A stretch of 61,489 bases of DNA from a virus, in IMG/VR virus record IMGVR_UViG_3300042567_000475, positions 1 to 61,489 of that record; one strand, given 5' to 3'. The notes beneath the pieces are model-generated. The model saw nothing but the letters and a program-made list of their open reading frames with translations, searched no databases and was not told the origin of the DNA. The stretch's first letter is position 1. Each line of letters begins with the position of its first letter. Below are positions 4,002 to 49,258 of the stretch, one piece after another. The position numbers were made by a program, and so were the translations under genes.

Positions 4002-4499
4002 CTAGGCTGCTTTTAGTTTGTCAATACTTTTAGAGAAAAAATCTTCACTTTTATGAGTAGGCCAATAGTAGTTACACTTGTCACAACAAGAAATAAAACT
4101 ATCAAACATAAACTCTGCATAATATTCTGGATCTTTACGATATAGATTATTACGATGGGATTGATGAATTCTCTTATCTCCCCACCAAGCTGGCATAACT
4201 ATATTGTTTCCACGATTCCAATTGTTGTTATGTATTTCTAATATAGCATTCCAATTTTTATCTGTCTTGATTCCGCGATGAACGCATTCGTCTTTGATTG
4301 CTTTAAGATATGAAAACAGTCCCATATCATAATTTTTCCACATTAGTACTGCTGGATGCCGTACCCAAGCACCTTGGGTTCTACCAGAGGACAATATGTT
4401 ATATATTTGTCTTCCTTCTAATAATTGTTTCAATAGTCTTTTATTATCTAGGACTGATGCTGATTTTATAATATTATCGAACGGAACAAAAGTTTGAAT
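4002..4499 (-). CDS. Pyrimidine-dimer DNA glycosylase-like protein with ATT start
   Basis: The frame matches the small protein family annotated as pyrimidine-dimer DNA glycosylase/MSMEG_6728-like (Pyr_excise type). Motifs include SASVLDNKRLLKQ, a GAWVRHPAVLMW segment, PAWWGD, SHRNNLYRKDPEYY and a terminal NYYWP. The family begins 'MQTF.PY..F..SA..LD..RL'. The matching residues (QTFVPFDNIIKSASVLD) are in frame upstream of the first usual start (TTG at 4433). The only initiator with a well-placed ribosome site is ATT at 4497-4499, with AAAGGAG ending 6 bases before it. The complete product would be 165 residues. Role: probably repair of UV-damaged DNA. Confidence 0.7.
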   Translation of the reverse strand: MQTFVPFDNIIKSASVLDNKRLLKQLLEGRQIYNILSSGRTQGAWVRHPAVLMWKNYDMGLFSYLKAIKDECVHRGIKTDKNWNAILEIHNNNWNRGNNIVMPAWWGDKRIHQSHRNNLYRKDPEYYAEFMFDSFISCCDKCNYYWPTHKSEDFFSKSIDKLKAA

Positions 4500-4502
4500 G
4501 AT

Positions 4503-4973
4503 CTACTCCTTTGGTTGTAGTGTACGACTATCATATCCTAGTGACTCAATAAAGTCAACAAGTCGATTTATCTCTGTTTCATAATATTTAGATATTTGCA
4601 TTCTTTTTATATTTTCGGACCTGCTTACTGGCTCAAGGTGGCTTGGCTCAATACATAGCTTATTTCTACATAAATGATCCAAGGTGTCGTGACGACCTAT
4701 TTCTTCAATCATTATTTTGTAATAGATACGATGAACTAAATAATTTATATATTTCCATTTGACATTTGGATAGCCACCAGTATCAACATGACCAGTCCAA
4801 ACCAAACATCCATTATCATTTCTTATAGACTTTCTTTCTATTCTTTCTTTTAAGGTTTCTTGAGTTTTGAGTGGCGACAATTCCTTGCTTCTCTTTATTT
4901 GCATTCGGTGACCCGAGCAATAACCGATTGAAGATGATTTTGGCAGTTCGCAATTTTCAAACATACACTTCAT
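4503..4973 (-). CDS. HNH endonuclease (homing type)
   Basis: A 156-residue protein. An N-terminal Cys/His cluster (CMFENCELPKSSSIGYC.GH) is followed by CLVWTGH, VHRIYYKIM and the HNH core DHLCRNKLCIEPSHLEPVS with an NIKR tail, typical of HNH_3 homing endonucleases in phages. It sits as a free-standing gene and has its own strong promoter directly at the start codon. It is probably a mobile gene that spreads by cutting sites in related genomes. Only 3 bases separate it from the glycosylase-like gene, whose ribosome site lies in this gene's last codons. Confidence 0.85.
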   Translation of the reverse strand: MKCMFENCELPKSSSIGYCSGHRMQIKRSKELSPLKTQETLKERIERKSIRNDNGCLVWTGHVDTGGYPNVKWKYINYLVHRIYYKIMIEEIGRHDTLDHLCRNKLCIEPSHLEPVSRSENIKRMQISKYYETEINRLVDFIESLGYDSRTLQPKE

Positions 4974-4979
4974 TTAACT

Positions 4980-5009
4980 ATTATAGCATATCTTTCAACC
5001 AGCAGTCAA
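4980..5009 (-). promoter_or_regulatory. Strong promoter of the HNH gene, leaderless
   Basis: TTGACT (5004-5009), an 18-base spacer ending TGC (extended -10) and TATAAT (4980-4985). Only six bases, AGTTAA, separate it from the ATG at 4973, and no Shine-Dalgarno is present. The mRNA should begin at or next to the start codon. Confidence 0.65.
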
Positions 5010-5191
5010 TCTCTTTCTATAAGATCTAATGGAGTTGGAGCTGTTAGCTTAGTCTGACAGTAAGCACACTCACAGTCAAGTAAATATCCTATAATTTCAT
5101 AATCTTCATCAAACTGAACTTGGACAGTAAATAAATCTGATCCACATTTAACGCACACCCTAGTTGGTATGCCCCTGCAATCTAGCATCAT
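5006..5191 (-). CDS. Zinc-ribbon protein, unknown function
   Basis: A 61-residue protein with CVKCGSD near the N-terminus and CECAYCQ toward the C-terminus, a classical four-Cys zinc ribbon. The ATG at 5189-5191 overlaps the TGA of the micro-gene upstream (TGATG). A TTG just before would add one residue. Its stop lies inside the HNH promoter. Function unknown. Confidence 0.6.
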   Translation of the reverse strand: MMLDCRGIPTRVCVKCGSDLFTVQVQFDEDYEIIGYLLDCECAYCQTKLTAPTPLDLIERD

Positions 5192-5257: not shown

Positions 5258-5286
5258 ATTTTACAGGAATTATATCTTATTGTCAA
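5258..5286 (-). promoter_or_regulatory. Near-consensus promoter before the zinc-ribbon unit
   Basis: TTGACA (5281-5286), a 17-base spacer and TAAAAT (5258-5263). The -35 box overlaps the stop codon of the endonuclease VII gene. Confidence 0.65.
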
Positions 5287-5723
5287 GACTGATTTAATAA
5301 ATAAAGGATAGCTCTTTGTAAAGAACTTATTTCATCTTTAAACCCGCCAAGAGATGTATTGCACAAGCTGCACAATAGACCTCTAACTTCTCCTGTGGCA
5401 TGATCATGATCTACAACAAGATCTTTTTTGTTTTGACAGATCCAGCACTTGCCTTCTTGCTCAACAAAGATCTCTGTGTATTTTGCTAATGTTATATTGT
5501 ATTTTCTCTTTAAATACTTTTCTCTTACGGCTTCTGGATCTCTAGCTTTTTCTCTACGCATTCTATCTTTACGTTGTTTGTTGTCACATGCCCTGCACTC
5601 TGGCCTAATTTCTCCAGGTTTAGTAGAATTTTTTGCAAACTCAAGCTCAGAAAGAATTCTTTTACACACATAGCAGTATTTTTCTGTAGGTGCTGGAAAC
5701 AAAACTTCCTGATAGCTTTCCAT
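5283..5723 (-). CDS. Recombination endonuclease VII family
   Basis: A 146-residue protein. An N-terminal zinc element (CYVCKRIL and CRACDN) is followed by a basic helical stretch and the endonuclease VII core (KCWICQNKKDLVVDHDHATG, then VRGLLCSLCNTSLGGF). These hold the two CxxC pairs and the catalytic DHDH region of this His-Me finger family. T4 endonuclease VII resolves branched DNA before packaging. Many phages carry similar genes, some of them mobile. The start overlaps the glycosyltransferase stop (TAATG). Confidence 0.9.
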   Translation of the reverse strand: MESYQEVLFPAPTEKYCYVCKRILSELEFAKNSTKPGEIRPECRACDNKQRKDRMRREKARDPEAVREKYLKRKYNITLAKYTEIFVEQEGKCWICQNKKDLVVDHDHATGEVRGLLCSLCNTSLGGFKDEISSLQRAILYLLNQS

Positions 5724-11199: not shown

Positions 11200-11495
11200 T
11201 TTAAGAATCCATTTCCTCTAGTTTTTAATTTACTTGGTAGTGTGTCACCAGTATCAATGACTGGCTCTAGTGTAACCTTAACTCCGAAAGAAGTCAAGGC
11301 TTTTCTTATTTTTTCTAAATAAGCTACACAACGAATTCTTTCTGATTCGTTGTAATAGCCCCATTGTGACTCATAGAACCTGACTGCAATGAATCTGTTC
11401 CTTGGGTCAAGATCGTACTCAACTATGTCGATTACGAATTCATGTGGTGGTTTAATTGATCTTACTGCTTTTTGCATAGCCAATGTATAAATCAT
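11196..11495 (-). CDS. Hypothetical protein
   Basis: A 99-residue protein from ATG 11493-11495, which overlaps the whiB stop (ATGA) and follows GGAGACAAA. A longer start at 11522 lies wholly inside whiB and is less likely. The sequence alternates beta strands and helices (FVIDIVEYDLDPRNRFIAV; RCVAYLEKIRKALTSFG). No family recognised. Confidence 0.6.
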   Translation of the reverse strand: MIYTLAMQKAVRSIKPPHEFVIDIVEYDLDPRNRFIAVRFYESQWGYYNESERIRCVAYLEKIRKALTSFGVKVTLEPVIDTGDTLPSKLKTRGNGFLK

Positions 11496-11782
11496 TTTGT
11501 CTCCATAGTTATAGATGACCAAACATTAAACCATTTGTTCTTGTCTTTATGATTGTTAAACTCTTTTGATATCTTACCTTTTTCAAAGTAAACCCCTCCC
11601 CAGACTCCCCACTCTTGCCTACTAATGGCACTTGCAAGGCACTGTCTTTGTACAGGACAACTTTGACATAAAGAATCTATTGCTTGTCTTAAATCAAGGT
11701 CCTCTTCATATTTATCAAAGAAGAAGTTTGTATCTAAGTTTAAACATTTTGCGTCTAGCTTCCAATCTTTTTTAGGCATCAC
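11492..11782 (-). CDS. WhiB-family iron-sulfur transcription regulator
   Basis: A 96-residue protein with the four cluster Cys of WhiB proteins (Cys13, Cys39, Cys42, Cys48) and the GVWGG turn (59-63) followed by a Lys-rich tail. WhiB proteins bind a [4Fe-4S] cluster and region 4 of the primary sigma factor. The family is confined to actinobacteria and their phages, which is the strongest host clue here. Phage WhiB proteins can displace host WhiB functions. It is co-transcribed with SSB. Confidence 0.93.
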   Translation of the reverse strand: MMPKKDWKLDAKCLNLDTNFFFDKYEEDLDLRQAIDSLCQSCPVQRQCLASAISRQEWGVWGGVYFEKGKISKEFNNHKDKNKWFNVWSSITMETK

Positions 11783-38323: not shown

Positions 38324-38904
38324 TAAACTTCCTCAAGACTAACAGATATATCCCACATGTCATAATTTGTTCCGCCACGTTTAATTACGTCATGGTCAAA
38401 TGAGGAAAAGAATACCTGTAAAACTTGATTATATTCTGCTAAATGACCATAGGTATTTTCAGTAAACTCATTGTATTTATCATATGCAAGAAGAATATAA
38501 AACGATCCTGTATGATTTTCATACCAATTTACAATGTCTACGCCTCCAGCTCCTAAGTCTGCTGTGAAATCTTCTACATTGTTGGTCAATACGCCAAGAT
38601 CAGAAAATGTTGCAGATGCGGAAAATGCACGGGAAGGCAAAAGATTCCATGAAAAAGAAAGTCTCTGTTTATCTGCTATGTGATAAGATCTCATAGTTCC
38701 ATTAATCATTCTTTTTTTGTTCTCTATTCTTTCACAAGATATAGAAATCTCTGATCTATTGTGGTCAGAAAGAATTATAAAGTCTTCAAATTCTGTGCCA
38801 ACTGGAACAAACTTTCCATTGCTTTTTTCATATGCATCAGCCCAGACAATTGCTTGGGGTCTTGAATAAGCAGATCTTCCAGCCATATATAAACTATTAG
38901 CCAC
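38323..38904 (-). CDS. Distal tail-like protein
   Basis: A 193-residue protein directly after the tape measure gene. WADAYEKSNGKFVPVGTEFE and KQRLSFSWNLLPSRAFSA are followed by beta strands. Position and size fit a distal tail (Dit-like) adaptor between tail tube and hub, but no specific motif was recognised. Confidence 0.6.
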   Translation of the reverse strand: MANSLYMAGRSAYSRPQAIVWADAYEKSNGKFVPVGTEFEDFIILSDHNRSEISISCERIENKKRMINGTMRSYHIADKQRLSFSWNLLPSRAFSASATFSDLGVLTNNVEDFTADLGAGGVDIVNWYENHTGSFYILLAYDKYNEFTENTYGHLAEYNQVLQVFFSSFDHDVIKRGGTNYDMWDISVSLEEV

Positions 38905-41900
38905 GGATGTTATTACTCCTTATACCTTTATTTTCAGTCATTTTAATCTTTTGCATCACGGCGTTTGCTACATCATTTGCATCCATGTCGGAGCCATTTA
39001 ACGTTACGTTTACATTATAATTATACATTGATCCAGACTTTTCTGTTTTATTAGAAGAATTGAAAGAGTTAGTTTTCATAGTTGGGAAGACTTGACCATT
39101 TAGTAATTCTAGTAAAGGTCCATATTGTTCTGCAACTCTTTTTCTTACAACAAATTCCCCTGGGGTGAGCAGAGCTGGAACCTTGTCTGTCATTCCTCTT
39201 CCAGGAACGATAGATCCATATGCATATTTTTTAGCTGATCCTCCATACATCATTCCTGGAGCACGTTCTGTAGATCCTTTGTAATTTACCATTCCACCTA
39301 TAGCATAATTAGAAATAAAACCACCAAAAGCTCTGTTTGCTGCTCTTGCTTTTGCTGCATTTGCTGCTGCTCTTACTGCTGCTGCTGCATCTGCTGCCCT
39401 ATCTGCTGCTGATGGTCCTGCTACTCTTTTTGCCGCTGCTTCCGCTGCTGCTCTTGCCCTGTCTGCTGCTGCCGCTGCTGCTGCTTTTGCTCTTTGTGCT
39501 TCTGCTTCATTTGCTTTTGCTTGCGCTGCTGCTCTCGCTTTTGCTGCATTTGCTGCTGCTTCCGCTGCTGCTCTTGCTGCTGCTGCATCTCTTACTGCTG
39601 CTGCTGCATCTGCTGCCCTATCTGCTGCTGATGGTCCTGCTACTCTTTTTGCCGCTGCTTCCGCTGCTGCTCTTGCTGCTGCTGCCAATCTTGCTGCATC
39701 TGCCAATCTTTGTGATTGATCTGCTGTTGGTGTTGGTGCTGATGGTGCTGATGGTGTTAATGTTTTTACTGGTGGTATATTAACAGAATTCGATCCCCCT
39801 CCACCGCTACCGCCGAGGTACCCGCCACCAGTGGTTAGGGCTGGACCAGCTGGATTTAAAAGCATCCCGCTTTGACCAATAGGGTAAGGGTCGGGTGCTG
39901 GCTCTGCTGGTGTTGCTTCTGTCTCCCCAGCATTATCTCCTGGAATAGTTTTGTTTAAACGATCTTGATCCTTTTGGAGATCTTTTAATTTAACTCTAAG
40001 ATTTTCTAGCGCCTCTGCAGCGTTATTATATTTTGTTGCAAGCCTATCGGCTTCATTATTTATTTGTATTTGCAAGTCATATATTTTATTTTCAGCAGGT
40101 AGTATTTTAGTACTTTGAATTATATAAATCTCATCTTGAATTACTCTTTGTCTCATCTGAAGATCTTCAATATCTTTATTAATCTTTTTCTTTTGCTTTT
40201 CTATTTCAAGAATTTTATTTTGAATGTTTTGAGTTGCTTTTTCTTTTTGAGACTCAAGAGCAGATCTTGCCTCTTCTCTACTTTGTCTGGCAAGTTCTTG
40301 TGACATTCCCAAAGCACCTTGGGCTGCAGCAGCAACGTCACCACGGGAAAGTGCTTGAGCAACATCAAGTTGCCCCTGCTTAAGTTTTGCAATATTTTCT
40401 TCTCTGTTATATATTTCATCAAGAGCTTCAATTTGAGCATCATATGCTTCAGAAGTTTTATCAGATAGTTCTTGAAGCTTTTCTATTTGATCGTCAAGGG
40501 GTTCAAGTTCTCTTTGCTTAAGTTCAATGTTTCTACCAATTATATCAACTTCTTGTTGTTTTCCTCTAACAATCTTTTCTTGCCCGTCAATAATTTTTTG
40601 CTGAGCTTCAACCAGATCTTCAAGAGGTTTAACTATCTCAATCTCTTCAATCTGACGTTGAACATCTTTTATTTCCATAAGGTTGTCGCGTTTTTCTTGT
40701 TCAAGTCTGCCTGGATCTCTAGCATATTCTGCTGCTTTTAATTTATTATAAGCATCTGTAAGGAGTTCTACCTTTCCAGTAGCATCCCCTGCTTTTAATC
40801 CCGCTGCTGCCAGTGCAGCAGCTAACTCTGGAGTTTTTCCTTCATTAATAAAACCTAGTTCTGCAACTAATAATGATGTTTGAGTTTTCATGTCAGTAAT
40901 AGACCCTGAAATTTTTTGAGCTTGATTGATTATAGGAGCATCTCTTTCTGCTGCTTCTCTCGCTTCTTTAAAAGCTTGTAATTTTTGATTAATCTCCCTT
41001 TTTTCTTCTTTACTTGTTCCTTTATCTTTTAGTTTTCTTCTTAGCTGTTGAGCATAAAGAAGATCTTCATCAGAAATGAGTTCTCTAATAGCATTTATGT
41101 CATCTTCATATAGACCCTTGTCTGCTAATTTTTTATTGTATTGTGAAGAAAGAGCAGTTTTTTTAGACTCTTGAACCAATGCTTGTGGAGTTAATGCAGC
41201 CATTGCTGCGGCGTCTGAAATCTTTGTTTTTTGGTAATCAGCATATGCTGCCTTGACTTTTTCAAGTCCACCCTTGATAAGTTTTAGTCCTGCTGCACCT
41301 TGAGACCTTAAATATTCTAAAAATTCAGGTGCAAATGGGCCAGCTATAAAGTTTTTAAATCCTTTTTCATTTTGAAGATTTGATATACCTTTAAAGGTTT
41401 CCCCTGATAATTTTGCTTGTTCTTTAAGTTGTTGGGCTATTGACTTTTCTCCACCGCCACTACTACCTGAGCTAGATCCAGAGCCAGGAATTGGTGCAAC
41501 AGTTGCCTCTACTAATGCTTTTTCTGTACCTATTTGACTTTGCAAAGATGCAATTCTTTTCAAAATTATTTGTCTTGATTCTGCATCTGTCGCAGTTTTT
41601 AGTGCTGCCATTGCACTGTTTAATTGCATAACAAGTGATAAATTTTTAACTTCATATCCCATTCTTATTTCAATCATTTGTTCTTGAACAACTGGATCTA
41701 ATTTATCAAAGTTTTTAAATTGTTCTCTTAGTCCAGCTATCGCATTTGCTGCTGCTTCTTGTGGAGTTCCTCCTGCTATATTTTTTCCACTATAAGCAAC
41801 AGCAATATCTATCATTGCTTTTTTTCTAATTTCTGAATTACCACTTTCTAAGTCTTTCATGGCTTTGTTAAGTTTTATAACATTTTTTGATACTTGCTCT

Positions 41901-44900
41901 GGAGTAAGTGGTTTTCCTTCTGCGTCAAGGGTTAGAAATTCCATTGCTGCAGTCATATTAATATTTGGATTAAGATTTTCAATAATTTTCCATTGATCTT
42001 TTAATGTTTTTGCAGCAGCACCAAATTTTAATAAATCTGCTGGGTCTGTTGTGTCAATTTTCAAACCCTTTATCATTTCATCTGGCAAAGACATAATATC
42101 TTCCTGCGCTATGGTTAACTTTGTAATTGATGAAATCATTTCTGCTGGAGTATTTTCTCCTTCAGTTTGAATTACATATCTAATTACTTTTTCAACTACC
42201 CCACCTTCTGCTGCTCTAGCAAAAGCTTTGTTGATTTTTTCTGATCCATCTACTTCTCTAACTGCTTTTCCATAGGCATCACTTTTTTGAATTGCGACTG
42301 CCTGCTCTACTCCAACTGATCCTGAAAGAGATTGAAGTCCGAATGCAATGTCTGTTCGTCTTCTTTCTTGTTCTTCAGGAGAAATAATATTTCTTCCTGT
42401 ATCTCCAGTCTGTATTCCAGCAGACTTAAGCGTTTCTATACCAGTTTTTAGAAGATTTTCTGGTAAGGATGCAATATAATTTTCAATTAAAGCTGTATTT
42501 CCTCCAGCTGCTTCAAATTCCTTACCTATTGTAACAACATCACTTGACTGTCCCTTTGTAATTCCTGGAATATTTTGTGCAAACGTAATAAATTGTGCAG
42601 TAGCAATACTTGCTCCATCTCGCAATGCCTTAAGTGCATCAACGTTGTACATAATTTCTTGACCAAATTGAGCAGCTTGTTCAGCAGTCATGTCTCCAGC
42701 AAGTACGGATGCTTTAATTGCCTCATTTAGTCCCTCAAGATCGACCTCTCTTGCAAGATCTTGTGCTTCTTTTGATTCTTCAACTAAGGAGGTTTGTTGT
42801 GTAGAATCAAGTTCACCAAAAGATTTATCAAATTGTACATCTGCTTGTTGCTTAACAAATTCTTTTTGATAAGCTGATTGTGAGGGCGTTATTACATCTA
42901 CCATCCCCAATGCCGCCCCCACTAGGTTTCCACTAAGTAGGCTTAATGCAGGCCTCAAATAATCTTTTGATTCGCTAAAGCCAAGGGAAGATGTTCCAAT
43001 GTTTGTTGAATTAGTAATTGCACCTACCTGATCTTCTGTATAGCCTGCTGCAACCATTTGTTGATCCAGAGCTTGTCTTGCGGCACCTTGTTCAGCAGCA
43101 TTGCTAACAGATTTTTTAATAACATTTGTGTATTGTTCTTGAGCCGTTCTTGCTTCTGTTATTGCAGTATGATATTCGTTCCAACCAATTGTTCCTTCTG
43201 CGTATTGCTGTTCGGCAACTCCAATTACATTTCCATAATCTTGAATTATTTGTGTGGCTGCCCCTATAGCTCTACCAGCGGTTTCATTTGAAAGGCTTGC
43301 TTCCCCACTTGATACTGCAAGTTTTGCAAGAGAACCATCGGCATCAACTGCCGCTTTACGCATATCAGCAATTTCTTTTATAGCAGAAGTTCCAGTTTTT
43401 TGTCCTGATATAGATGAAACAGCTTGATTTGAAAGAACAGAGTCTCCAAGTTTTAATCCTACTGCTTTAGCAAAAGTAGTTGCTGCTTTCTGATCCATCA
43501 TTCCAGATGCTATTGCTGTCTTTAAATAATCTGATAGTTTTTGGAATCTTTCAGCAGATGTTGAATTTTGAAGATCTTCAATAAACTTTTGTCCAGCACC
43601 AGATTCAAATACCCCAGAGAATTCATTTGCGATTGTTGCTTCTTCTTCTGAAGAAATTCCCATTACTGCTTTTTGTCTGGCTTGTGCAGGAGTTTCTGTT
43701 CCTAGTACTTGTGCCATTGTATTTAATGCATTTGCAGTAGCACCAATATTTGCTCCAAACTCCGCTGCTTTAGTGGCAGCATCATCTACACTCTTTCTCC
43801 AAATATATAATCCAGCACCTACTGCTGCTAAAGCTGCTGCTACTGCTGCTGCTGGAAGTGCAATTGCAGCAAGTGGTGCTAGCATTGGTCCAAGCATTGG
43901 TAGCATACTGCCCATGCTAAGAGCCATTCCTCCAGCATTCATGGCTGCCCCTAGTCCTGCATTTGATTCACCAACAGAGCCTGCACCCATCATTAAGGCT
44001 CCACCAGCCATTCCTATGCCCATGGAAGCTCCCATGCCCTTCATTCCACCCATAGATTGAAGACCTCTACCAATGGCTGAGTTTGCTTTATTTTCTTTTC
44101 CAAATCCAAGTGTTCTTGAAGAAAATCCTCTTTGTCTTGTAGTTGTTGTTCTTCTAATTGCTATGGCACGACCAATTTCTCTTCCAATTGTTTTATCATC
44201 CATAGCATTTCTACCCAATACTGCGTCTGACTGATATTCATATATTGGGGAACCTTTTTGTGCAAGAGCCTTTGCCTTTTCTGGATCTTTAATTGGCTTT
44301 CCATCTGCACCAAATCCAATGATATCTCCACCTTCTGCATATCCCATTAAAGTTCCATTATTAACAGAGCGTAGTAAATCTAAATTCTTTTTTGTAGCAT
44401 CTTTATTGATAACAAATTCACCTGGAGTAAGTACTGCTGGTACTGTGTCTTTATTCCCTACCCCTGGAACTATGTTTCTAGATGTTTTTGTTGAATCAAA
44501 TATTTCTCCACCAATATTTCTCATCTGAGGAAGAATGCCACCCATGTTAAGTTTTGATACAACATTTGGATAAGATACTTCTCTTCCTCTTCCCCAGTTA
44601 ACAAAGGCAGCCATATTTTCAGATTCATCATAAAGTCGATCTAAGTCGGGCTTTGCTTTATCGCGGGAAACTTCTCCTCTAACAATTGCCATTCTTATTT
44701 TTTTAATTTCTTCTTTTGCCTTGTCGTATCTTGCTTGAGCTTCTTCTCTTTCTACAATTCTAGTTTTTGGCCTTCCCGTTAGTCTTGCACCTAAAAGGGC
44801 AACCTCTTTTTCGTCAAGGATTTCATTACTTGCTGCTGGATTATTTATTCTTTGTTCATCTCTGGGAACAATTCTTCCGCTTACATCAAAGTATTTTTCT

Positions 44901-47900
44901 CCCTTCTTTATAGAAGTTTTATAAATTGTAGGAATATTTGATTCTTGTAAATCATCAATAATCTTTTGATGACCAGCAATAAATTCTTGATCTCTTTTAA
45001 TTCTTTCTTCAAGTTTTTTCTTGTTGGCTTTCCAAATAACACCACCAGATGCTTGAATTTCTTCTGGAGTTAGTCTTAAACCTAATGCCCCATTTTCTTG
45101 ATTAAATGGAGACCATGTTTTCAAAGGGTGTGGACCATCTGGCCCCAAAGATCTTAACCAATCTATATCTCTTTTCATTCCTTGACTTCTTTGAGCAATT
45201 TGGAATTTTGAGTTATTCATTTTGTCAAATAATCTAGAGCTTTCTATAAATCTTCCAACACCCTTACCTGTTGACCAGCTAGAGACTTCCTTTAAAGTTC
45301 CTCCGCTTATTGGGTCAACAGATCCTCTTGTTATGTCTATCTTTTTTCTAGATGTAGACAATCCTCTTTTTATGTTTGCTGGGATGTTTTGCAACATGTC
45401 ATCTCTATTTGATTGACTAATAGATGTTGTCATTCTTGAGAACCATTCAACAATGTTTGCTGGGATGCGGCCTCTTGCACCTCTTGCTGCATTTGCTGCT
45501 GCAGCAATTCCTCCTCCTCCTAGCATTGAAATCATTCCACCCATATTAAGTTGGGACGATTCTGACATAACGTATCTTCCTGATGATTTTCCAGTGCTCT
45601 TTAATCTTGATGTTCCTTGCATTCTTAAAGAGTCGTATAGTTTTTCAGGAAGATTTCTTTTTAAAATATCTGTAAAGATATTATCAAATTCTCCTGGTTT
45701 AAGAGGTGTTTCGCCTATACTTCCAAATATATTTCGTGCATCATTGTATGATCTTTCTATTGCTGGAATAGATATTGTGTCTGGTATACCTAGTCTTCTT
45801 GCAGCTTCCAGCTGCAAAGAAAATGGATGAGCAGGAGTGTTTGCAAGATCGTTATAGATATCTTCTCCAGTTATCTTTCCAAAAGAAGGTCCACCTTTAA
45901 GACCTTGATTAACTCTTGGTGATTGCCAAATCATTAACCCTGGATGATAAGTTCTTTCATCATCAATTTTAATTCCCTTGGCAACGTGACCTCTTTGCAA
46001 AAATTCTGCAGACAACATGCTTTCGTCCAAAACATCTCTTCCAAGGCTAGAGCTTGAACCCATTATTCTTTTTCTATCATTTTTTTGCAATCCCCCTCCC
46101 GTACCCGTCAACCAACCTGGAAGCAAGCCCCGTGAACTTCCCGACAATCTTTGAAAGTTTTTCATTAACATTCCTATATTGGCATACTGTACTCCAGGAA
46201 TCATTCCACCCTTGTTTGCATGAGTGGCTTGACCAGATCCTCTTAGACCTGCATAATCAAGAACTCCTTCAGGTCTTCCTAGATTTCCAGCTTCTCTTCC
46301 TGCAAGGTTTCCAATATTTATCTGTCTACCATCCATGTCAACATAAAGATCTTTTTTATTTTTTCCTGATGAATATTGAATTCCTCTAGCATCTAGGGTT
46401 TGTTTTATTAGTGGCAAAGATGCATTTGCATTTACAGCATCTCCTTGAAGCACATCCCTTATAAAATCATTTCTTCTTGTTTTGGGAAATCCAGCAGAGT
46501 CTAAATATTTTCTTACAGCATTACGAGAGGCTTTTTCAAATCTTCCGTTAGTAATACCTGTCATTGGAAGTTTTAAGATTTCTTCTTTATAAATTCTGTC
46601 AAAAACATTTCTATCTAATTTTGCACCCAAATAACTGTCTAGCTGTTTTGCCAATGGGGAATAAACATCTGGTGTATTCAATTCTTTAAGAAGATTATCT
46701 CTTGTTAAATCCCCTCTCATCATAGCTAGGTTTGAGTCTTGAGACATTCTAAAAGTTAGGTTTCCACGAGTTTTTAATCCAAGCTGTTCTGGACTAAACC
46801 CAAGTCTTTCAACAGCAAATCTTAAAGTGTCTACCCTTACATTTTGTCCTTTTTGATATTTTCCAGTTAAAGTATTGTATAGGTCTTGTGAGCTTCTTGA
46901 GGATGCTGCGTTTGATGCTTGAGTTTTTCTAGTCCCCCCTCTACCGCCCATTGCAATTGGAATAGTTGCTGCCTCTTGTCTTTGAGTCTGTACTCTTGCC
47001 ATAACTCTTTGCATTGCAGCGGTCATACCTGCCCCACCACCAGTATTCAACATAGAGACTGGCTTTCCACTATTAATGGCATGAAGCAAAGAGAAGTTTT
47101 CCTGTGTGGCCTTTTTGTTTACTACAAACTCTCCAGGTGTTAGAACTGCTGGGACGGTATCTCTATTTCCAACCCCTGGAATAGTGCCTCCACTGTTTCT
47201 TGCAACTATTGGAAGAGGTCTGCCTGCAAGATTTGACGATCCTCCTCTAGCCCTAGTCATTGCTGCGCCAGGAATTGCAAATGCTCCTCCTGCGACTGAA
47301 GCTTTTGAGGCGTCCATCATTCTTGCAGCAAGAATTTGATAAGAAGCTGCTAATTCATCAACTGCTGTACTTGCTACTCCAGCAGCTAAAGGCTGGTCTC
47401 TTAATGCCATATTTACAAACTCAGTGGATTGTCCCAATTGCATTGCAGCGTTTGCTGCGTCCATTTCTGCAAGACTCATGTATTTTAATGTTTGACTTAC
47501 TGCCTGAATTGAACCAGATATTCCACCTTTTGTAAATCCCTTAAAGGCTACTCCAATAACATTTCCAAATTTAATAAGAGTTCCTGTTAGGTTCATTAAC
47601 AAACCTAAAAACATAGTTCCTGCTGGGATTAAAATACCAGTAATTACTGTTCCAAATCCAATAAACTTTTTAGCAAAGTCTGGTAAAGAATTAAATTTTT
47701 CTACTAGGCTTCCTAGAAATTCAAGAACAGGAATAGCTAGTTGAGTAAACATTTCTCCAATTGGAGCTATGGCAAGCTTTAGTCTTTCCATTGCTGCGAC
47801 AAATTTTGTTGCAGAAGAATCTTCAATAGCACCAAGTTCTTTTGTAGCAGAAGCAGCAAGTTGTGCTGCTGACAATGCAGCAGTATCCATAACTCGTGAA

Positions 47901-49258
47901 GCTTGAGATCCATCCTTAATAATATTATTAAACAAAGCTCCAAGTCTTGCATACTGGTATTTTCCAAATACCTTTTCAAGTGCTTGTTGTTTTCCAAATT
48001 CATCTAGAGTAGCTAATGCTCTAGCAAAACCTTGAACAGTTCCCATAAGATCTCCGCGATTTGCGTCAACAATTGCATTGATATTTATACCAAGTTCGCC
48101 TAGCTTTTCTACTGCTCTGTTTGTTGGGTTAATCAAAGAGGCAAGACCAGATTTTAATGCGTTTGCTCCTTGAGCAGCAGAAACACCGCCTTCCTGCATA
48201 GCAGCAAGCATTGCAGCCATGTCTTCTACAGATCCACCAAGACCTTTAATAACTGGAGCAACTCTTGGAATAGCCTGTGCAAGATCTTGCAGGGTAACAA
48301 CTGTTTGGTTTTCTACCATGTTCAAAAAGTTAATTGTTTTTGTTAAATCTTTACTCTGTAGACCAAAGGCTGTTTGCAAAGCTATTGTTGTTTCAAGTGC
48401 TTCACTTTGTTCCATTTGACCAAGTGTTGCAAGTCTAGTTGCTTCTCTGGTTGCATCAATAAGATCTGCGCCCTGGGAACCAGCAGCGGCAGCTTGAGCA
48501 GCCAGACCAATAGTATCTTTTACTGCAATTCCATACTTTGTATATTCTTTTGCCAATTCCTTAACAGCTTCAAGGTTTGCTTCCATCTCTTCTGGTGGTG
48601 TAAAAGCATCTCCATAAACTTTTCTAAAGTTAATTGTTTCTTTTTCAATTTCTCTAAATACTTTTCCAGATGTGGCTGCAAAAATTGTAAGTGGTACTGT
48701 AAAGCCAACCATAAGCTGACGACCAGCCCACTGAGTATTCTTACCAAAATTAATCATTGATGTCGTTGATTGGGTAAGCATTGCTCTATGAATTGCTAAT
48801 TTTTGTGCTGAAACTGCTGCTTGAGAATTAAAGGCTTGAAGAGGTCTAATTGCAAGTGACTCTCTAAATCCATTTGCTGCTGAACCAGTGGCTATAAATT
48901 GAGTTTCTAATGCTGATGCACGGGCATTTGCCAATGATAGGACTGCTGCTGCTTCATTGCTACCCTTTTTAAATCTTGCGTTAAAGAATTGACCTATTGT
49001 TCCTTGTCCCTTTTGAAGAGTCTTGTCTAGTCTAGAGGCAGCGGTTTGCATCCTTACTGTTTCTGCACTAAATAATCCTCCAGCATTAACCATCTCAGAA
49101 AGCTCTGATGCAAGATTTTTTGCTGCGCTAGCTTGAACTCTATTGTTAGTATTTAAAGCTGACTGAAATGAGTTTATCTGAGCCTGAAGCTGCCTAAGAC
49201 TTTGAGCAGCGTCACTAGTATTGATGTTGACATCAATATTAACTCTAGTATTTGCCAC
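38897..49258 (-). CDS. Tape measure protein (3453 residues)
   Basis: The longest gene of the window. The N-terminal 200 residues are helical. About residues 180-560 match TP901-type tape measure proteins (FGKNTQWAGRQLMVGFTVPL, then VEDMAAMLAAMQEGGVSAAQ). Hydrophobic segments occur near 525-560 and 1740-1830. A coiled-coil-rich part spans about 2650-3080, with an Ala-rich repeat at about 3186-3306. The motif VPAxLTPGEFV occurs three times (starting near residues 700, 1604 and 3358). It sets tail length and is ejected with DNA; the usual 0.15 nm per residue predicts a tail near 0.5 micrometre. It follows the frameshifted chaperone genes. Confidence 0.93.
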   Translation of the reverse strand: MANTRVNIDVNINTSDAAQSLRQLQAQINSFQSALNTNNRVQASAAKNLASELSEMVNAGGLFSAETVRMQTAASRLDKTLQKGQGTIGQFFNARFKKGSNEAAAVLSLANARASALETQFIATGSAANGFRESLAIRPLQAFNSQAAVSAQKLAIHRAMLTQSTTSMINFGKNTQWAGRQLMVGFTVPLTIFAATSGKVFREIEKETINFRKVYGDAFTPPEEMEANLEAVKELAKEYTKYGIAVKDTIGLAAQAAAAGSQGADLIDATREATRLATLGQMEQSEALETTIALQTAFGLQSKDLTKTINFLNMVENQTVVTLQDLAQAIPRVAPVIKGLGGSVEDMAAMLAAMQEGGVSAAQGANALKSGLASLINPTNRAVEKLGELGININAIVDANRGDLMGTVQGFARALATLDEFGKQQALEKVFGKYQYARLGALFNNIIKDGSQASRVMDTAALSAAQLAASATKELGAIEDSSATKFVAAMERLKLAIAPIGEMFTQLAIPVLEFLGSLVEKFNSLPDFAKKFIGFGTVITGILIPAGTMFLGLLMNLTGTLIKFGNVIGVAFKGFTKGGISGSIQAVSQTLKYMSLAEMDAANAAMQLGQSTEFVNMALRDQPLAAGVASTAVDELAASYQILAARMMDASKASVAGGAFAIPGAAMTRARGGSSNLAGRPLPIVARNSGGTIPGVGNRDTVPAVLTPGEFVVNKKATQENFSLLHAINSGKPVSMLNTGGGAGMTAAMQRVMARVQTQRQEAATIPIAMGGRGGTRKTQASNAASSRSSQDLYNTLTGKYQKGQNVRVDTLRFAVERLGFSPEQLGLKTRGNLTFRMSQDSNLAMMRGDLTRDNLLKELNTPDVYSPLAKQLDSYLGAKLDRNVFDRIYKEEILKLPMTGITNGRFEKASRNAVRKYLDSAGFPKTRRNDFIRDVLQGDAVNANASLPLIKQTLDARGIQYSSGKNKKDLYVDMDGRQINIGNLAGREAGNLGRPEGVLDYAGLRGSGQATHANKGGMIPGVQYANIGMLMKNFQRLSGSSRGLLPGWLTGTGGGLQKNDRKRIMGSSSSLGRDVLDESMLSAEFLQRGHVAKGIKIDDERTYHPGLMIWQSPRVNQGLKGGPSFGKITGEDIYNDLANTPAHPFSLQLEAARRLGIPDTISIPAIERSYNDARNIFGSIGETPLKPGEFDNIFTDILKRNLPEKLYDSLRMQGTSRLKSTGKSSGRYVMSESSQLNMGGMISMLGGGGIAAAANAARGARGRIPANIVEWFSRMTTSISQSNRDDMLQNIPANIKRGLSTSRKKIDITRGSVDPISGGTLKEVSSWSTGKGVGRFIESSRLFDKMNNSKFQIAQRSQGMKRDIDWLRSLGPDGPHPLKTWSPFNQENGALGLRLTPEEIQASGGVIWKANKKKLEERIKRDQEFIAGHQKIIDDLQESNIPTIYKTSIKKGEKYFDVSGRIVPRDEQRINNPAASNEILDEKEVALLGARLTGRPKTRIVEREEAQARYDKAKEEIKKIRMAIVRGEVSRDKAKPDLDRLYDESENMAAFVNWGRGREVSYPNVVSKLNMGGILPQMRNIGGEIFDSTKTSRNIVPGVGNKDTVPAVLTPGEFVINKDATKKNLDLLRSVNNGTLMGYAEGGDIIGFGADGKPIKDPEKAKALAQKGSPIYEYQSDAVLGRNAMDDKTIGREIGRAIAIRRTTTTRQRGFSSRTLGFGKENKANSAIGRGLQSMGGMKGMGASMGIGMAGGALMMGAGSVGESNAGLGAAMNAGGMALSMGSMLPMLGPMLAPLAAIALPAAAVAAALAAVGAGLYIWRKSVDDAATKAAEFGANIGATANALNTMAQVLGTETPAQARQKAVMGISSEEEATIANEFSGVFESGAGQKFIEDLQNSTSAERFQKLSDYLKTAIASGMMDQKAATTFAKAVGLKLGDSVLSNQAVSSISGQKTGTSAIKEIADMRKAAVDADGSLAKLAVSSGEASLSNETAGRAIGAATQIIQDYGNVIGVAEQQYAEGTIGWNEYHTAITEARTAQEQYTNVIKKSVSNAAEQGAARQALDQQMVAAGYTEDQVGAITNSTNIGTSSLGFSESKDYLRPALSLLSGNLVGAALGMVDVITPSQSAYQKEFVKQQADVQFDKSFGELDSTQQTSLVEESKEAQDLAREVDLEGLNEAIKASVLAGDMTAEQAAQFGQEIMYNVDALKALRDGASIATAQFITFAQNIPGITKGQSSDVVTIGKEFEAAGGNTALIENYIASLPENLLKTGIETLKSAGIQTGDTGRNIISPEEQERRRTDIAFGLQSLSGSVGVEQAVAIQKSDAYGKAVREVDGSEKINKAFARAAEGGVVEKVIRYVIQTEGENTPAEMISSITKLTIAQEDIMSLPDEMIKGLKIDTTDPADLLKFGAAAKTLKDQWKIIENLNPNINMTAAMEFLTLDAEGKPLTPEQVSKNVIKLNKAMKDLESGNSEIRKKAMIDIAVAYSGKNIAGGTPQEAAANAIAGLREQFKNFDKLDPVVQEQMIEIRMGYEVKNLSLVMQLNSAMAALKTATDAESRQIILKRIASLQSQIGTEKALVEATVAPIPGSGSSSGSSGGGEKSIAQQLKEQAKLSGETFKGISNLQNEKGFKNFIAGPFAPEFLEYLRSQGAAGLKLIKGGLEKVKAAYADYQKTKISDAAAMAALTPQALVQESKKTALSSQYNKKLADKGLYEDDINAIRELISDEDLLYAQQLRRKLKDKGTSKEEKREINQKLQAFKEAREAAERDAPIINQAQKISGSITDMKTQTSLLVAELGFINEGKTPELAAALAAAGLKAGDATGKVELLTDAYNKLKAAEYARDPGRLEQEKRDNLMEIKDVQRQIEEIEIVKPLEDLVEAQQKIIDGQEKIVRGKQQEVDIIGRNIELKQRELEPLDDQIEKLQELSDKTSEAYDAQIEALDEIYNREENIAKLKQGQLDVAQALSRGDVAAAAQGALGMSQELARQSREEARSALESQKEKATQNIQNKILEIEKQKKKINKDIEDLQMRQRVIQDEIYIIQSTKILPAENKIYDLQIQINNEADRLATKYNNAAEALENLRVKLKDLQKDQDRLNKTIPGDNAGETEATPAEPAPDPYPIGQSGMLLNPAGPALTTGGGYLGGSGGGGSNSVNIPPVKTLTPSAPSAPTPTADQSQRLADAARLAAAARAAAEAAAKRVAGPSAADRAADAAAAVRDAAAARAAAEAAANAAKARAAAQAKANEAEAQRAKAAAAAAADRARAAAEAAAKRVAGPSAADRAADAAAAVRAAANAAKARAANRAFGGFISNYAIGGMVNYKGSTERAPGMMYGGSAKKYAYGSIVPGRGMTDKVPALLTPGEFVVRKRVAEQYGPLLELLNGQVFPTMKTNSFNSSNKTEKSGSMYNYNVNVTLNGSDMDANDVANAVMQKIKMTENKGIRSNNIRG
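39370..39457 (-). repeat. 88-bp direct repeat, copy A (tape measure Ala-rich region)
   Basis: The same 88 bases recur at 39589-39676, in frame, 219 bases apart. They encode Ala-rich residues including KRVAGPSAADRAAD. Probably a recent duplication by slippage or recombination. Confidence 0.85.
39589..39676 (-). repeat. 88-bp direct repeat, copy B
   Basis: Second copy of the unit at 39370-39457, base for base as read by eye. Both lie within a tract of GCN alanine codons (about 39340-39700). Confidence 0.85.

Follow-up and report, generated by a model that had tools for sequence, protein, structure and literature searches.

The window analyzed here is the whole of a 61.5-kb virus record from IMG/VR (IMGVR_UViG_3300042567_000475), which carries on its minus strand a gene for a predicted DNA-repair enzyme that appears to start with ATT. 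Read along this strand, a gene for a 62-amino-acid protein (5194 to 5006) is followed by a gene for a free-standing HNH endonuclease of 156 amino acids (4973 to 4503), the sequence AAAGGAG-TAG-ATC-ATT, and a 165-codon gene of the pyrimidine dimer DNA glycosylase family (Pyr_excise, PF03013; 4499 to 4002). The junction reads ...CCAAAGGAG-TAG-ATC-ATT-CAA-ACT-TTT-GTT-CCG, wherein the TAG at 4505 to 4503 is the stop codon of the HNH gene and is also in frame with the glycosylase, two codons 5′ of ATT. The HNH protein is assigned through matches to PHROG HNH families (to 4e-26), and it is homologous to HNH proteins at two other loci of the glycosylase family, L255 and L252; in Pfam, HNH_3 reaches 22 bits, under its cut-off of 24.8, and zf-His_Me_endon also falls under the cut-off. 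Its open reading frame (ORF) occupies nearly all of a stretch of about 505 bp (4500 to 5005) that the ends of homology reveal to be missing from two relatives, L004 and L013. In such empty relatives, the 62-amino-acid gene ends directly before the glycosylase ATG. The inserted cassette has a promoter-like site (5009 to 4980), named for its match to the consensus at 11 of 12 positions, in which TTGACT, 18 nt and TGC-TATAAT are followed after 6 nt by the HNH ATG. An HNH mRNA from this site would be leaderless.

The PF03013 profile matches the glycosylase product with 62.8 bits (cut-off 23) over profile positions 2 to 80 of 81. This match begins at residue 2 of the frame read from ATT, and the N-terminus therefore precedes the first canonical start codon. 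Indeed, no ATG, GTG or TTG occurs in frame between the TAG at 4505 to 4503 and an internal TTG at 4433. The original prediction, made from the window sequence, had placed the conserved N-terminus before any canonical start and had named ATT (4499 to 4497), with AAAGGAG 6 nt upstream, as the only codon that could start the gene. Both claims stand, in that ATT is the only credible start. The adjoining in-frame ATC (4502 to 4500), which the prediction did not mention, is a second possible near-cognate codon, poorly spaced at 3 nt from the Shine-Dalgarno (SD) site. The SD site itself (4512 to 4506) is coded by the final codons of the HNH gene (..K-E-stop). The sequence features of a gene started by AUU, AUC or AUA are thus all present: no canonical in-frame start, an N-terminus that coincides with the near-cognate codon, and a properly spaced SD site.

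The gene also appears intact. No stops interrupt its 165 codons, invariant residues are retained, and the ratio of nonsynonymous to synonymous substitution rates (dN/dS) relative to relatives with ATG is 0.12. The ATT base, for which the prediction had sought read support, is found in two further metagenome assemblies (IMGVR 3300002835_001981 and 3300044547_000415), both identical over the 165 amino acids and flanks. The best reading of the sequence is that ATT is the real start of the glycosylase gene, its ribosome site being provided by the HNH insert. Three other accounts of the junction were rejected. A sequencing or assembly error is countered by ATT in three assemblies, by ATC in two assemblies of the related locus L020, and by the 27 distinct genes described below. 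Reassignment of TAG is countered by the terminase and glycosylase genes, which themselves end in TAG, and by L020, which has TAA. Finally, a group I intron whose splicing rebuilds ATG-CAA finds no room for a ribozyme core and no Rfam match, be it across the window, at its insertion site when the threshold was relaxed, or at six further HNH loci.

The putative activity on pyrimidine dimers takes its name from the Pfam family alone, which includes T4 endonuclease V. The window protein resembles this family by its profile match and differs from it in belonging to a short MQTF..P subfamily without a PDB sequence match. An AlphaFold model (predicted local distance difference test score, pLDDT, 87) likewise found no fold match in the PDB, so that no likeness to the fold of T4 endonuclease V, which would back a role for the exact N-terminus, was found.

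A search from the window recovered 46 relatives. The same codon is ATT in two records that are 100% identical to the window, ATC in the L020/L021 lineage (protein 67% identical), and ATG in nearly all others. This comparison, which the original prediction had proposed as a check, places the start of relatives at the position of ATT and not at the internal TTG. Among distinct viral matches picked by internal motifs, blind to the first codon, we counted 85 ATG, 3 GTG, 2 ATT and 1 ATC; bacterial homologues start with ATG and GTG. A DNA pattern requiring ATT, ATC or ATA (ATH) before QTFxP...A..LD..RL.KQ was then run over all of IMG/VR. The result, which is complete for this pattern, comprises 50 contigs, versus 1 contig (ACG after AAGGAG) for a control pattern with AAG, ACG, AGG, CAG, CCG or CGG. 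Pooled with the earlier loci, these contigs yield 39 distinct genes, including the bacterial L174, whose ATC was set aside given a canonical start upstream in frame; the 38 viral ones entered a tree. No ATG, GTG or TTG lies upstream in frame in 27 of the 39 (20 ATT, 4 ATA and 3 ATC). A pattern allowing any first codon gave 106 ATG, 14 GTG and no ATH among the matches listed, and ATH starts are therefore a small minority, with a share of about 1 to 4% judging from 3 of 91 viral relatives picked blind to the codon and 0 of 120 among the matches listed. At these loci, genes of other families have 385 ATG, GTG or TTG starts and no convincing ATH start, the lone ATT there having an ATG after it. 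A reading of the window ATT as an isolated curiosity is not supported, as ATH starts recur across this glycosylase family.

Several members deserve separate mention. L390 (near 4122, minus strand) has another near-cognate start, ACG, with TAAGGAG before it and an in-frame stop five codons upstream. L142, a distant member, starts with ATT, has no HNH gene, and likewise has an in-frame stop five codons upstream; its gene follows a promoter-like site (TTGACT...GATATAAT) and GGGGG at 2441 to 2500, 3′ of a long ORF that is halogenase-like by eye, and the same glycosylase and leader occur in L226, L230, L233 and L249. In a clade with the motif FNKCAYxLDxKRLFKQ (L231, L250, L254, L256 and L257), all five members found start with ATC, ATA or ATT directly after an acidic upstream gene and have no HNH gene; the search was aimed at ATH, and members with ATG are possible.

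Three pairs of loci exhibit a present/absent polymorphism for the HNH gene: the window and L004, L020 and L080, and L238 and L286. L004 is a close relative with ATG and no HNH gene. Over 978 nt it is 97% identical to the window, and this homology stops near 5022, 17 nt short of the L004 ATG. Relative to L013, the 5′ homology extends to 5005, reaching the base before the L013 ATG. On the 3′ side, homology between the window and the empty relatives restarts at the start codon. L020 and L080 are 95% identical over 1030 nt, a match that proceeds 11 nt into the glycosylase gene, through ATGCAAACATT of the empty gene; after the insert, the L020 glycosylase resumes as ATC-CAAACATT. L238 and L286 share a stretch of 208 nt with 95% identity, which reaches the base adjacent to ATG. 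That ATG now begins the HNH gene of L238, and a second copy of the ribosome-binding site precedes ATT-CAG, such that CAGGAGRCTG stands in front of the HNH ATG as well as the glycosylase ATT. The sequence ATGCAAAC represents the empty-site DNA, as in L004, L080 and L286.

From the three empty/occupied pairs it follows that, in three lineages, an insertion fell on the first codons and the glycosylase ATG was lost. In the L080/L020 and L286/L238 pairs, the change is from ATG to ATY and the HNH genes are of another group than that of the window. By these comparisons, the landing of an HNH gene on the glycosylase start has happened separately in several unrelated phages. The original prediction had offered a single ATG-to-ATT point mutation as its alternative; in the window the change instead accompanies the insertion of an HNH gene at the start codon.

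Remnants of the former start, in the form of ATGCARAC 5′ of an ATH codon, were sought and are convincing in L020 only. In the same locus, a perfect inverted repeat (ATGCAAACATTA / TAATGTTTGCAT) at 2500 to 2560 surrounds TATAAT and the HNH start and derives partly from the old glycosylase start. Start-region hairpins are also carried by homing endonuclease genes of T4. The HNH genes of the window (4500 to 4520) and L020 (2980 to 3000), although of different groups, are identical at their 3′ ends (AAAGGAGTARATCATY) and resemble each other in the 5′ leader (TGCTATAAT, 6 nt, ATG). It looks as though one ORF had been exchanged for another within a fixed slot.

Across the family, a motif search found an HNH gene ending 2 to 12 nt upstream of the glycosylase in 9 of 38 ATH/ACG genes versus 0 of 168 ATG/GTG genes (Fisher p = 1e-7, uncorrected for relatedness). 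The linked genes represent seven lineages (the window, L020, L238/L241, L246, L252/L259, L255 and L269). By Pfam and pairwise comparison, their HNH proteins fall into an AP2 group (L020, L238, L246 and L269) and a zinc-loop group (window, L252 and L255). The replacement SD site is coded by the last codons of the HNH gene, which read KE-stop in L020 and the window and KET-stop in L252 and L255. A general effect of HNH genes on their neighbors was rejected, as six isolate phages that carry related HNH genes retain ATG in the next annotated gene. Action of an HNH protein in trans was also rejected: HNH_3 occurs elsewhere in 2 of 25 ATH contigs without an adjacent HNH gene, which equals the 2 of 25 in ATG control contigs.

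ATH genes tend to have stronger SD sites. A match of at least 5 nt is present in 18 of 27 ATH genes versus 30 of 128 ATG/GTG genes (p = 4e-5), and the difference inside the GKQ subgroup alone has p = 0.05. ATH genes are under purifying selection, with dN/dS for ATH-ATH pairs mostly 0.05 to 0.12 and 0.23 in one, and several such pairs have saturated synonymous sites (e.g., L254/L256 and L225/L265). Within one clade, the first codon is ATC, ATA, ATT, ATT and ATT. A tree of 210 sequences requires, by parsimony, 23 changes for the ATH state, at least 14 of them over well-supported branches, and the state is clustered relative to shuffles; the tree is quick and has many long branches, and these counts are therefore approximate.

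We consider it probable that insertion of the HNH gene at the glycosylase start removed ATG, that the gene now starts at ATT with an SD site supplied by the HNH gene, and that re-entry of ATG is barred by a putative target sequence. In this proposal, a free-standing HNH homing endonuclease gene inserted at the first glycosylase codons, leaving the native upstream region on the HNH side and depriving the glycosylase of its ATG. With its 3′ end, the HNH gene brought AAAGGAG as a new ribosome-binding site and ATT at the exact codon of the former ATG. The insertion, the lost ATG, the SD site, the conserved frame and continued purifying selection can be read directly from the aligned sequences. From these we infer that ATT is used as the start, with the initiator tRNA still placing methionine first, and translation from it would probably occur by termination and reinitiation after the HNH stop codon. 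Reinitiation can use noncanonical starts (with matching mutant initiator tRNAs); an SD site lowers its sensitivity to initiation factor 3 (IF3), an excess of which inhibits noncanonical starts (PMC2268962). Natural AUU and AUA starts accompany extended SD sites (PMC13009471). The low expression and IF3 sensitivity that the original prediction expected of an ATT start are plausible by analogy with infC, pcnB and the S. aureus genes (PMC13009471, PMC2268962).

ATG has probably been kept out since ATGCARAC would rebuild all or part of the putative HNH target, and an ATH codon would thus give the carrier self-immunity. Homing endonucleases prefer sequences that code essential residues (PMC2988022), a description that fits MQTF. 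For gene 60 of T4, the translational bypass has been proposed as a defense against a homing nuclease (PMC5009743). More tentatively, the glycosylase start codon may be a shared target of several HNH homing endonucleases, with immunity gained by the change from ATG to ATT, ATC or ATA and compensated by a strong SD site. ATH members without an HNH gene may be relics left after its loss, resistant alleles or dose-limited genes.

Some findings weigh against this explanation. About 18 of 25 ATH lineages have no adjacent HNH gene, and therefore insertion is not the sole route to an ATH start. Moreover, a possible GTG, TTG or ATG lies 3 to 9 codons upstream in three lineages (L246, L252/L259 and L269) out of the seven linked to an HNH gene, and every ATH case comes from metagenomic data, with ATG or a diverged start in those isolate relatives that were checked. 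The lineages without an HNH gene would fit an alternative that we consider possible but doubtful, wherein selection favors a weak ATH start that limits the amount of a potentially harmful glycosylase and the HNH association is secondary. Within clades, ATT, ATC and ATA do interconvert, with the protein conserved even though synonymous divergence (dS) is saturated, and weak codons with strong SD sites have precedents in pcnB (AUU) and infC of E. coli, cvfC1 and ccpN (PMC13009471). Dose limitation leaves unexplained, however, why HNH genes lie directly upstream of ATH copies only and why SD sites in ATH copies are stronger rather than weaker.

A tolerated, mildly harmful and short-lived drift from ATG to ATH is improbable as the general cause. 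The glycosylases of L245 (ATA) and L330 (ATG), which are 98% identical, have almost matching leaders and both lack a strong SD site, look like a true case of point mutation. The three pairs described above differ by insertion instead, which refutes such drift for the window lineage unless L004 should prove not to be its empty-site relative, and ATH is kept across pairs with dS above 2. We give very little credence to readthrough or frameshifting out of the HNH gene to yield an HNH-glycosylase fusion. In the window and L020, the HNH stop does share the glycosylase frame and precedes ATT or ATC by two codons, but gaps of 2, 5, 8 and 12 nt in other lineages mean that the two frames differ between lineages. 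In addition, the HNH stops vary (TAG and TAA), TAG also ends other window genes such as that for terminase, and L142 has an ATT start and an upstream in-frame stop with no HNH gene to read through. It is equally hard to believe that the insertion killed the gene and left a pseudogene. The canonical start is lost, but the uninterrupted reading frame, the retained invariant residues and the low dN/dS to ATG relatives argue for a functional gene, and ATH-ATH pairs too are under purifying selection. Insertion of an HNH gene at the start codon, with ATT taking over from ATG, is thus the explanation we prefer for the window.

Elsewhere in the window, a WhiB gene (11492 to 11782) points to an actinobacterial host. 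A gene of the endonuclease VII family (PF02945, 87 bits; 5283 to 5723, minus strand) lies a few genes upstream of the glycosylase, and an ORF of 3453 amino acids (38897 to 49258, minus strand), very long relative to the size of the window, presumably encodes the tape measure protein.

Near-cognate AUU, AUC and AUA starts have been described for a few genes of bacteria and are not among the starts that gene finders propose. In the family studied here, parsimony on the well-supported branches counts at least 14 switches of one phage gene between canonical and ATH starts, with purifying selection retained. If so, phage annotation would misplace genes with ATH starts or lose their N-termini, and a start-codon swap may serve as protection from a selfish nuclease. 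The HNH link offers a reason for ATH that is testable in vitro, by comparing cleavage of ATGCARAC and ATHCARAC.

Among known systems, AUU starts pcnB and infC of E. coli and cvfC1 of S. aureus, and AUA starts are reported for infC and for S. aureus ccpN (PMC13009471). The glycosylase gene resembles these in combining a conserved near-cognate start with a strong SD site (PMC13009471). Those examples belong to hosts and act in dosage or feedback, whereas the window gene is a phage repair gene, and the phage case recurs across unrelated phages and is linked to an inserted endonuclease. The mob and seg genes of phages are similar in placing an endonuclease gene with its own promoter-like site in a tight gap and in carrying expression signals for the downstream gene (PMC2988022); the window insertion differs in consuming the start codon, and several insertions have occurred at the same place in different phages. 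With T4 gene 60, where a 50-nt translational bypass lies beside mobA, the window shares the disruption of a gene by a free-standing HNH homing endonuclease and a translational oddity proposed to shield the target from the nuclease (PMC5009743, PMC2988022), a protection that for the window would hold by analogy. In gene 60 a noncoding insert is bypassed, whereas in the window it is the start codon that has changed.
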